Source: Geosiphon pyriformis (lineage: Eukaryota; Glomeromycota; Glomeromycetes; Archaeosporales; Geosiphonaceae). From it: a DNA stretch of 64,000 bases. The translations under genes were made by a program, and so were the position numbers. The stretch lies in contig JAAOMT010000211.1 in assembly GCA_016748015.1 (NCBI GenBank), positions 116,248 to 180,247 on the forward strand. The letters are read 5' to 3'. This document shows positions 22,851 through 58,500 of the stretch, piece after piece; within the stretch, counting starts at the first letter, position 1, and each line of letters starts with the position of its first letter. The notes under the pieces are model-generated. The model searched no databases. It saw only the letters and a program-made list of their open reading frames with translations, and was not told the origin of the DNA.

Positions 22851-24410
22851 TTAAATACTTTTTTTTCTTATAATTCCAAATTTAAATTTATCATCCTCCA
22901 TTTTTTTCAACTCAAAAACAGAAATAAACTTTCTTAAAAAAACATTTCCAATAACCCAAGTATTTTCAACAGCTTTTGAACCTTTCACTCCAGAAATACA
23001 ATAAATTGTATCCGGAATTTTTTCAAATATTAGGTCTTCATTCGTCAAATCATAGGCAATTGAGTTGAACATAAATGAAAATTTGAATCGTGTTGTACAC
23101 TTTTGAAAAATAAAAATAAAATTTTAATAAATATTTATAGAAAAAATAAAAATAAAAATAAATTACCGGGAATGCGTAAACTCCTTCATAACCTTTGTTG
23201 CTGATATTTTTAAAACCTGGAATTCTTGAATTAAATCGGTACGCATCTTCAAATGGTAGGTTAATGAACGGGGAACCTGAGGAAAAAAAAAAAAAAAAAA
23301 GNNNNNNNNNNNNNNNNNNNNNNNNNNNNNNNNNNNNNNNNNNNNNNNNNNNNNNNNNNNNNNNNNNNNNNNNNNNNNNNNNNNNNNNNNNNNNNNNNNN
23401 NNNNNNNNNNNNNNNNNNNNNNNNNNNNNNNNNNNNNNNNNNNNNNNNNNNNNNNNNNNNNNNNNNNNNNNNNNNNNNNNNNNNNNNNNNNNNNNNNNNN
23501 NNNNNNNNNNNNNNNNNNNNNNNNNNNNNNNNNNNNNNNNNNNNNNNNNNNNNNNNNNNNNNNNNNNNNNNNNNNNNNNNNNNNNNNNNNNNNNNNNNNN
23601 NNNNNNNNNNNNNNNNNNNNNNNNNNNNNNNNNNNNNNNNNNNNNNNNNNNNNNNNNNNNNNNNNNNNNNNNNNNNNNNNNNNNNNNNNNNNNNNNNNNN
23701 NNNNNNNNNNNNNNNNNNNNNNNNNNNNNNNNNNNNNNNNNNNNNNNNNNNNNNNNNNNNNNNNNNNNNNNNNNNNNNNNNNNNNNNNNNNNNNNNNNNN
23801 NNNNNNNNNNNNNNNNNNNNNNNNNNNNNNNNNNNNNNNNNNNNNNNNNNNNNNNNNNNNNNNNNNNNNNNNNNNNNNNNNNNNNNNNNNNNNNNNNNNN
23901 NNNNNNNNNNNNNNNNNNNNNNNNNNNNNNNNNNNNNNNNNNNNNNNNNNNNNNNNNNNNNNNNNNNNNNNNNNNNNNNNNNNNNNNNNNNNNNNNNNNN
24001 NNNNNNNNNNNNNNNNNNNNNNNNNNNNNNNNNNNNNNNNNNNNNNNNNNNNNNNNNNNNNNNNNNNNNNNNNNNNNNNNNNNNNNNNNNNNNNNNNNNN
24101 NNNNNNNNNNNNNNNNNNNNNNNNNNNNNNNNNNNNNNNNNNNNNNNNNNNNNNNNNNNNNNNNNNNNNNNNNNNNNNNNNNNNNNNNNNNNNNNNNNNN
24201 NNNNNNNNNNNNTGGAAGATTTGTTGAAACTGAATTATCAAAGGTTTCTGAGGGAAATAGAAAATCTGTTGAAACTGAATTATCAATGGATAAAAATTCC
24301 GGAGTTTGAATTGATGAATCATAAGAACATTTCGAAAGATATGCAGAATAAACTTTTGAAATTTTAATGAAAAGAATGAAGAAATGGTTTAAAAACTTTG
24401 AGGTTTTCAT
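22851..24410 (-). CDS. Secreted pepsin-like aspartic protease (A1 family), interrupted by an assembly gap
   Basis: Minus strand. The start at 24410 gives MKTSKFLNHFFILFIKISKV, a signal-peptide-like hydrophobic N-terminus ending near YSA. A region with a 15-residue repeat (DNSVSTDFLFPSETF, then DNSVSTN) runs into the N gap. Beyond the gap, exon 23276-23167 begins after a T-rich acceptor (CCTCAG). It reads SGSPFINLPFEDAYRF and ends GYEGVYAFP; with the missing preceding bases this is the C-lobe D-S/T-G active site. After a phase-0 intron, exon 23099-22851 gives CTTRFKFSFMF, YCISGVKGS and WVIGNVFLRKFISVFEL, the classic pepsin C-terminus with its disulfide Cys pair. The N-lobe DTG must lie in the gap. 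Joining the signal-peptide part to the protease part is inference from position and strand. It is probably secreted or vacuolar. Confidence 0.75.
23302..24212. other. Assembly gap (911 N)
   Basis: A run of N inside the protease gene, flanked by a poly(A) run at 23283-23300 and by a 45-bp tandem repeat at its right edge. Open frames that span it are meaningless. Confidence 0.99.
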
Positions 24411-53835: not shown

Positions 53836-54685
53836 TCACAAAAACAAAGTTGAGGTCTTCAACTAGGCTGTGAATTGCGAATAAATTTGACAGTGTGCGA
53901 ATTTTCTCTTTGGGTTTGAATAAAAGTTTTCTTGATGCTAGGGTGGCTATTATTATGGCCAACTCTTTGGCCTGTTATGTCACTAGGATTGAGGAGATTT
54001 CTGGTCATGTTGTGGTAGTGCATTTTTTATTCAAGAATAAGCTTTTGGTGTCTGTTGTTGGTTTGTATACAGGTGCATCTTCTGGAACTCGTTTTGGTCA
54101 GGTTTCTAAAATGAACTCTGTCATTGCTAAGGCTGTTAACTCCAGCTGTTTTGTTATTTTGGGTGGGAATTTCAATGAAAATAGATTTGGAAGAAGCACG
54201 AGTTTCAAATTCTGTTTGGGGTTGGATTTGGTCAATTTGTTTGCTGGCCACTCTTTGGTCAGTACTTCTACATGGAGCAACTCTAGGGGGGTTAAAAAGA
54301 CTATTGATTTCATTTTTGTTAGTGAGAGTTTGGCTTCTGCTGTCACTGGTCATAGAGTTGGCTCTGTTTCTGACTTTTTTGATACTGATCATTGTGTAGT
54401 TTCTGTCTCTGTTGGTTTGGGTGGCCTCTTGGATGGCTGGTTGAATAGCTTGCACAAGCAGGCTAACAAAGATTGCTGGAAGTTTCTCATTAAGGCTGTT
54501 GATAGGACCAAATGGTCTCGGTTTAGGGACTGTGCTTCTGCCAAGCTTTTGGCTGTGTCTGGTGAGTTTTTGGACACTCTGGCTCGTGCTAATGTGGATG
54601 GCATATGGGTACTTTTGGAAAAGGTGTTGGTGGATTCAGTAAATGAGATATTTTTGAGGCATTGGTTCAGTGAGTTTTAGTGTTT
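53836..54685 (+). repeat. First copy of an identical 850-bp block
   Basis: Appears identical to 54710-55559 with an offset of 874 bp. All six-frame translations I compared between the two are the same, including a 261-codon frame. See the adapter at 54691. Confidence 0.93.
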
Positions 54686-54690
54686 CAGAA

Positions 54691-54709
54691 CTGTCTCTTA
54701 TACACATCT
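54691..54709 (+). other. Nextera/Tn5 mosaic-end adapter sequence (contaminant)
   Basis: CTGTCTCTTATACACATCT is an exact copy of the Tn5 mosaic end used in transposase-based library kits. On the opposite strand it encodes MCIRDS, the peptide typical of such contamination in databases. It is not genomic. Confidence 0.97.
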
Positions 54710-55559
54710 TCACAAAAACAAAGTTGAGGTCTTCAACTAGGCTGTGAATTGCGAATAAATTTGACAGTGTGCGAATTTTCTCTTTGGGTTTGAATAAAAG
54801 TTTTCTTGATGCTAGGGTGGCTATTATTATGGCCAACTCTTTGGCCTGTTATGTCACTAGGATTGAGGAGATTTCTGGTCATGTTGTGGTAGTGCATTTT
54901 TTATTCAAGAATAAGCTTTTGGTGTCTGTTGTTGGTTTGTATACAGGTGCATCTTCTGGAACTCGTTTTGGTCAGGTTTCTAAAATGAACTCTGTCATTG
55001 CTAAGGCTGTTAACTCCAGCTGTTTTGTTATTTTGGGTGGGAATTTCAATGAAAATAGATTTGGAAGAAGCACGAGTTTCAAATTCTGTTTGGGGTTGGA
55101 TTTGGTCAATTTGTTTGCTGGCCACTCTTTGGTCAGTACTTCTACATGGAGCAACTCTAGGGGGGTTAAAAAGACTATTGATTTCATTTTTGTTAGTGAG
55201 AGTTTGGCTTCTGCTGTCACTGGTCATAGAGTTGGCTCTGTTTCTGACTTTTTTGATACTGATCATTGTGTAGTTTCTGTCTCTGTTGGTTTGGGTGGCC
55301 TCTTGGATGGCTGGTTGAATAGCTTGCACAAGCAGGCTAACAAAGATTGCTGGAAGTTTCTCATTAAGGCTGTTGATAGGACCAAATGGTCTCGGTTTAG
55401 GGACTGTGCTTCTGCCAAGCTTTTGGCTGTGTCTGGTGAGTTTTTGGACACTCTGGCTCGTGCTAATGTGGATGGCATATGGGTACTTTTGGAAAAGGTG
55501 TTGGTGGATTCAGTAAATGAGATATTTTTGAGGCATTGGTTCAGTGAGTTTTAGTGTTT
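54710..55559 (+). repeat. Second copy of the identical 850-bp block
   Basis: Directly follows the adapter and then continues into unique LINE sequence at 55560. It is the copy most likely to be continuous with the real downstream genome. Confidence 0.93.
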
Positions 55560-58500
55560 TAGGAACAAATTCTCTTTTAAGTTTTTCAGGTTAGAACTGT
55601 TAGTTGCTAAAGTTGTTAAAGAGCTGGGGTTGGGCGATTTGCGAAGAGTCAATCAGTTTATCAATGTCTGGGCCAAACTGAATGGTGGTAAGGCTGCTGT
55701 GATTGCTAATATGATCCAGGTTGGTGGCAAGTCTTTGGATGTCTTAAAGCAATTGTCATTATTTCAGAAGGAATACAGGAAATCCAAGATGTATGAATCA
55801 AAGTTGGCTGAAGAAGCTTCTGTTTGGAAGGCCATTGAGTGCCGCATAAAAAAATTTTGTTTTGATAAGAGTGCAATGATTAGAAGTGTGTTGGATCGGC
55901 CTTTCCACAAGGTAGTTCTCAATCGTTTGGTTGTTGATAATAAATTGGTATTGGAGCCGGGTATGATAAAACTTGGTGTTGATAAGATCATAGAAGGCTG
56001 GACTAAGAAGAGAATAGTGTCTTCAGTTGTGCCTAATGTTTGGGCTTATCAGTATGCTTTGTTAGATTATATAAGGGATGATGCTTTTTTGGGTGTGATG
56101 TGCTCGATCAATATGAGTGAGTTGCTTTTGGTGGTTAATAATTTATCTGATGGTAAGGCTGCTGGTCTGTCTGGTATTTCTAATGAGTTGTAGAAGCACT
56201 GTGGTGACATGGTGTTGAAGTGTCTTTTGGGTTTGCTAAATTTATGTTTGACTATGGGGGATGTGCTTGTTTTGTGAAAAAGAGCTTGGGTTTTCATGAT
56301 CCCTAAGCCTTATGACTGGGATGGAATTCTCACAAACACTTGATCCATTGCTCTTATCAAAATGACCAGGAAGATTTTCTCCAAGATTTTGTCAGATCAT
56401 ATTTCTTTGGCATACAGCAAGTTCAGTATTCTTCAAGGTGATAATTTCTCAGTGCTTAAGGATACTTCTACACAATCTCTGGTGTTTGCAATTTGGTCTG
56501 TAATTAAAAATGCTCTTGAAAAGAACAGAGAGATTTGGTTGGTCTTGCAGAATATGTACAAAGCATACAACTCAGTTGGATGGCACCATTTAAGGGCAAG
56601 CTTGCAGCATATCAAAATGTGTAAGAGATTTGTGTCATTTTTTGGTAACATTTATGAAAATAGAGTTAATAGAGTAATGATGGACTTTGGGTTTTCAAAT
56701 GGTTATGTGGTGCATGATGGGTTAGATCAGAGTGAAGTCTTCTCGCCTCTCTTGTGGATAATTTTTTATGACTCACTTCTGTGTGAGGTTAAAAGACATA
56801 AACAGTTTTTTGGATACCAAATAGATTCCAGATTTGTTTTGAGGTCAGGCCATATTGAGAGTGGTGGTGGGTTCTTTTCTTATTTTGTGGCTGGTGCTTT
56901 TGTTGATGATACAATATGGATTGGAAACTGTCAAACTGCTACTCAGAATATTTTGAACATTGCAAGTGAGTTTTTTGTCCTTAATAACATTTTTATCAAC
57001 AATAAAAAGACTGTGGCCATTCCAATTAATCAGGGTGTTAGGATTGCTTCTTTGAGTATTAGTGGTCTTTCCATCTCAATTGCTAAAAAAGGTGAGGCTC
57101 ATCATTATCTGGAGATCTTTCTATCTACTGATGGGCTTTCAAAGCCAAGTCTGGCCAAGGCACATTCTGATGTTTGTTTTTTTACTAATGTGGTTCTTAG
57201 AAAGACTATTACTGACAAGCAGTTTTCATATTTGGTGTCAGCTGTCTTGCAGCCTATTGTCAGCTATCACACTCAGTTCAGCTTTGTTTTATCGTCTATA
57301 TGCTGCAAATAAAATATGATGTTGAAAAAGGGTCCTAAGTCCAAAGCTGATTTGTCTCGTGATTTTCCCATTGAGACTTTGTGTTATCCTTTTTTGTATG
57401 GCCTAAAATTTTTTGAGCAGGTGCAGTCCAAAGGAAAGTTGGCTGCCTTGATTTTATTTTCCAATTCTTTTGGTGTTCTTGGATGTTTGTTTGAGCATAG
57501 GTTTCTTGATTTGCAGGTTCTGGAATGGTTTCCTCTGAACCTTTTACAGTTTCTTGTTAGATTGTGTGTTAGTCCTATAAATAATTTTTTGGCTGGTGTG
57601 GTTAGGATTTTTCTGTGTAATGAGCTGTCTCTGGCCAATAATTTGTCCAATGTGTTCCATAGTCCTGGTTGCTTTTCTGTGTCTTCTATTCTGAGAGGTT
57701 CTTTATTCTTTGATTCTGTTTATTTATTGAAGTGGTTTGGTGTGGCTTTTGGTGATAGACTGTTTGACAAAAAAGGATGTGTTATGAGTTGGGAAACTTT
57801 TCGGCACTGGAAAAGGCTGGATCCAAAAAGTCCTACTTTTCACTAGTTTAAAGTAGTGTCTGAGTTTTTTTGTGGTGGGGGCGCTTCTATGGCTGTCTCT
57901 GTGGAGTCTGCTTGTCCTTCTAGTTTAAGTGTTTTGGATACCAAGGAGTTTTCTGTTGTTCAGAATGGGTTACATGAGATTTGGTTTGGTTCTTTTAAGG
58001 TTTTTATGGATGGTTCTGTTAGGAATTATGGTTGTGCTAATGTAGTTAGTGGAATGGCTGCTTATTTTCCTGCAATTGATTTAAGTGTTGGCATTAGAGT
58101 TCTTGGGCTGTTGTTTTCTACTATGGCTGAACTGCAGGCCATCGCTTTGGCTTTGGAGTACATTCTTTTTTCTTGTTCTGTTGTATTGCATTCTAATAAT
58201 CAGGTGGCCATTGATGTATGCATTTCTGAAATATCATTATCTGTGCCTGATTTCTGCTCTTCATGTTGGTTGGAGAGGCACTGGATTTTTAATTTGGTTT
58301 ATAACAAGGATCTTTCTGTTTATTGGGTCAAGATTAAGGGACATTCTGAAGTTCATGACAATGTTAGGGCGGATGCTGCTGCTGAAGATGCTGCTCTCTC
58401 TTGATTTTCTTTGCCTGTTGGTGTTAGTAAGTGTTTTTTGGTTGCTGAAGACACACCTGTGTTTGGTAATGCTCGTCATTTTGTTTAGAATTTGTTTAGA

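Follow-up and report, generated by a model that had tools for sequence, protein, structure and literature searches.

The duplicated LINE segment and its seam

The window, i.e. the whole stretch of 64,000 nucleotides of the Geosiphon pyriformis assembly that was analysed (C157:116248-180247), carries a segment of a LINE twice in direct orientation, with a 19-nt sequence between the two copies. The first copy (53836..54690, plus strand) and the second (54710..55559, plus strand) are identical at 850 of 850 bases when positions 53836-54685 are compared directly with 54710-55559, at an offset of 874; next to the 19-mer the first copy finishes with CAGAA (54686-54690), where the second reads TAGGAA. 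The duplication spans about 855 bp of the LINE, and comparing the window with itself (word 24, E 1e-20) gave no other pair of segments above 90% identity. Each copy contains the same 261-residue open frame (53895..54680 and 54769..55554, both plus strand), attributed to the endonuclease region of the LINE on a weak, below-cutoff match to Pfam Exo_endo_phos_2. Downstream of the seam, a reverse-transcriptase open frame (RVT_1, 56362..57312, plus strand; PF00078, E 4.5e-09) is regarded as part of the LINE that contains the duplicated segment. Elsewhere in the window, positions 23302-24212 are a run of 911 N, which may be a scaffold gap or a masked stretch.

The seam itself is occupied by CTGTCTCTTATACACATCT, the minus-strand form of the Tn5 mosaic end (ME), at 54691..54709; the match, read directly in the window sequence, is exact, as stated in the preliminary description of this DNA. 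It is the single ME match in the window even when up to 3 mismatches are allowed, and none of 100 shuffled sequences yielded one. The preliminary description had also correctly placed the ME between two blocks belonging to a single LINE copy (its copy C), leaving unstated that these blocks duplicate each other in direct orientation, with 850 bp identical.

How the seam is built can be seen by comparison with other members of the LINE family. When the assembly was searched with positions 54390-55010, the part right of the ME matched at 100% farther upstream within the window, and the left part at 100% farther downstream, while 14 other LINE copies carrying both parts (among the best 40 of 584 candidates, 82-91% identity) have them in the opposite order, each listed once. 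Since these copies show the segment once and its parts in the opposite order, the ME lies here where the two copies of a direct duplication meet. The duplication is most likely not real. A gene model drawn across the seam would be chimeric in effect, as had been proposed, although what it would run through is one LINE segment written twice and not two loci joined.

The mosaic end across the assembly

A search of the whole assembly (124,688,122 bases in 406 contigs) for the 19-mer, which had been put forward earlier as a check, found the exact sequence 99 times (48 forward, 51 reverse) and the reversed-pattern control 0 times, the chance expectation being 0.0012 (124.7 Mb, both strands, base composition of the window). 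The AT-rich composition and the LINE/LTR content would suit an arbuscular mycorrhizal fungus, although an rRNA primer sequence of that group gave 0 matches; the Rhizophagus clarus HR1 assembly, with its 4424 scaffolds and TruSeq libraries (PMC6007072), is a different one. Allowing up to 2 mismatches raises the number to 102, i.e. only 3 beyond the exact ones. Such a ratio indicates a synthetic oligonucleotide, since among the copies of a natural repeat more should have decayed, and an old repeat family was rejected on these counts. PMC4248319 describes the ME as a synthetic sequence substituted for the natural Tn5 ends.

Sixty loci, containing 62 of the 99 sites (the other 37 lying outside the sample), were studied closely. 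At these loci the sequence flanking the ME varies from site to site, and certain sites have retroelement families in common. In the base frequencies of the 62 sites, positions 1, 4, 6, 8 and 11 after the ...ACAG end rise above the 99% null, and positions 2, 5 and 9 stay individually below it. The overall lean is towards G/C at the first and C at the ninth position, T at the second and A at the eighth, T at the fourth and A at the sixth, and A/T at the fifth, which amounts to a 9-base palindrome that we take to be the insertion preference of Tn5. On the side preceding AGATG..., none of 16 positions exceeds the 99% null at the same sites. As the motif is found on one side only, just one of the two flanks of the ME resembles a genuine Tn5 cut. 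The 19-mer is a laboratory adapter and not genomic, and the earlier view that a genomic origin is very unlikely finds support both in the 99 exact matches against 3 with 1-2 mismatches and in the one-sided Tn5-like motif. When the ME was divided, its 14-base part on the Tn5 side was found 104 times in the assembly and that at the opposite end 99 times (controls 0 and 2, respectively); this would fit, weakly, an extension that set out from the Tn5 cut, entered the adapter and sometimes halted early, the surplus of 5 being little above the control level.

Which library the adapter came from is less clearly marked. The earlier attribution to Tn5/Nextera is borne out for the Tn5 ME adapter but not for Nextera specifically, neither Nextera tail having been found in the assembly: TCGTCGGCAGCGTC has 0 exact matches and 1 with one mismatch (control 3), and GTCTCGTGGGCTCGG has 0 with up to one mismatch (control 2). 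Nextera mate-pair junctions are ME-ME palindromes, and no directly adjacent pair that would form the 38-bp palindrome occurs among the 99 exact positions. With neither the tails nor the ME-ME 38-mer found, the signature is incomplete for either type of library, and any ME-based kit would do as the source.

Sequence doubled or missing at other sites

The arrangement of the window recurs. In eight of the 60 loci (L014, L019, which is the window itself, L043, L047, L054, L062, L067 and L068) the ME separates direct repeats of at least 97% identity and at least 100 bp, which adjoin it within tens of bases in six of the eight. The repeat of L062, at 100% identity, measures at least 1722 bp and reaches both ends of the examined stretch. 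Fine structure next to the ME differs among the cases: the last 18 bases preceding it in L043 and the 229 bases preceding it in L047 are absent from the other copy, and in five of the seven tandem cases inspected the 5-20 bases beside the ME on its Tn5 side mismatch the other copy. In L014, L019, L054, L067 and L068 those mismatching bases sit in copies that are otherwise 97-100% identical; they are perhaps unpolished, or derived from another copy. Two further loci, L010 and L021, have a partial self-repeat on one side and were counted as uninformative.

At eleven other sites sequence is absent at the ME, by about 0.4-1.5 kb as measured on same-strand homologues. For ten of them (L020, L023, L030, L032, L036, L038, L039, L044, L058 and L059) the two flanks recur in homologues, situated in other loci or within the window, with order and strand preserved but 381 to 1525 bases between them, the calls at L023 and L036 being based on short matches; in L037, 463-476 bases lie between the flank matches in 12 homologous copies (both flanks at least 80% identity). 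The firmest cases are L037 and, with two homologues each, L039 and L059. Natural indels between retroelement copies could lie behind part of the missing segments.

Sorted in this way, the 62 sites comprise 8 with duplicated sequence, 11 with missing sequence, 41 that are uninformative and 2 that are ambiguous (L051, and L053 at 2874). At the 19 measurable sites the offset is never zero, and offsets of both signs occur, always on the same strand.

Two sites with paired MEs deserve separate mention. At L016:2001-2058, two oppositely oriented MEs lie 20 bases apart with their Tn5 sides outward, apparently the meeting point of two adapter-ended contigs. At C406:84162-85089, a forward and a reverse ME are 890 bases apart with their Tn5 sides inward, as though the assembly had taken in a complete tagmented fragment at this point.

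One locus presents the same anatomy as the seam without the ME. In L020, positions 762-1134 and 1155-1527 are identical over 373 bp and are separated by exactly 20 N, taken as a scaffold gap although masked stretches are likewise written as N; this is the one direct repeat of at least 97% identity and at least 100 bp in the 60 loci that is not split by an ME. Identical ends on both sides of the 20 N imply that the assembly at least once kept overlapping contig ends unmerged. At a second gap of 20 N, 3246-3265 in L054, comparing 2 kb of left-hand sequence with the 754 bp available to the right showed no such overlap.

Origin of the joins

Taken with the duplication around it, the one-sided Tn5-like motif, the positive and negative offsets measured at 19 sites and the one case in which 20 N separate identical ends, the ME of the window is probably, with a probability of roughly 0.85, a remnant of Tn5 library adapter marking a false join between contigs. 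Untrimmed adapter-bearing reads would have extended the end of a contig over a real Tn5 cut into the ME, and the adapter-ended contig would then have been butted onto a neighbouring contig of the same locus during scaffolding or gap closing. With the true overlap left unmerged, order and orientation would be correct and spacing wrong: in the window an overlap of about 855 bp would leave the LINE segment written twice, and at sites where the true gap was positive, sequence would be lost. That exactly 19 bases are left may have its reason in an assembly graph stopping at the centre of a mate-pair ME-ME palindrome. That gap closing was involved, and that its reads came from a mate-pair or an ordinary tagmented library, is what we infer from this pattern. 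Some details speak against the proposal, among them the Tn5-side mismatches of 5-20 bases in five of seven tandem cases, which simple butting alone does not predict, and the bases before the ME in L043 (18) and L047 (229) that the other copy lacks. A search of the literature for the ME at misjoins found no paper, which is not proof of absence.

The join could instead have been formed in the tube, a chimeric molecule (a fragment bearing one ME that had been circularised or end-ligated) being sequenced and yielding a read that the assembly then incorporated. Such an event would suit the non-Tn5 side, which is devoid of the motif and mostly has no bases in common with the ME, much as ligation of a broken to a tagged end would leave it, and a circularised fragment would produce the duplication topology of the window. 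However, circles yield duplications only, yet 11 sites have missing sequence; ligation of random molecules would presumably not preserve one locus and one orientation; and the case with 20 N between identical ends requires no chimeric molecule. This origin is therefore considered unlikely. As to fold-back chimeras, a search of the 60 loci found no inverted repeat reaching 97% identity and 100 bp. Inverted pairings with the window were flagged at L030, L051 and L067; that at L067 reflects LINE copies on both strands, since pairing with the window occurs there at an identical offset on either strand.

Simple insertion of an adapter into otherwise correct sequence would account for the exact 19-mer, and a plain insertion may hold at some of the 41 uninformative sites, but sequence is doubled at the ME in the window and none of the 19 measured sites has zero offset; at measured sites it was rejected on that ground, and for the window it is highly improbable. 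That the duplications and losses are real structural variants coinciding by chance with tagmented ends is likewise very unlikely. It is barely credible that the tandem duplication is genuine and carries an ME-bearing element or a naturally occurring 19-mer: both copies do run on into LINE sequence within the contig, but the ME replaces the natural Tn5 ends as a synthetic sequence (PMC4248319), its flanks vary from site to site, no decayed family accompanies it, and a 9-bp target duplication (up to 1 mismatch allowed) is found at 0 of 62 sites, on which count transposition with such a duplication was rejected.

Relation to known systems

A contig join closed over a leftover adapter, as preferred here, shares features with three known situations. 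Like untrimmed Nextera/Tn5 adapter contamination of draft assemblies, it involves an exact synthetic 19-bp ME adjoining Tn5-like cut sites; unlike it, the ME lies inside the scaffold at the 62 examined sites, spacing is wrong at 19 of 19, and the Nextera tails were not found. With false tandem duplications made by unmerged contig ends it has in common identical ends side by side, as in the L020 twin split by 20 N, whereas the spacer is here an adapter rather than N, so that the gap is unmarked. Natural Tn5/IS50 insertion is similar in the 19-bp end sequence and in a Tn5-like target preference on one side; here, however, there is a single end of mosaic sequence, with neither a 9-bp duplication nor a transposon body in the examined flanks.

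Significance

A search for the 19-mer flags hidden misjoins at which sequence is possibly doubled or missing silently. The scope of the warning is set by the 19 of the 62 examined sites that were measured, all 19 being wrong, and its application to the remaining sites is an extrapolation. The seam is most likely an artefact of assembly and tells nothing new about the organism itself. The endonuclease region of one LINE copy is doubled, and the dating of repeats would be misled, since a tandem duplication of 100% identity appears very young, as would gene models drawn across the seam.
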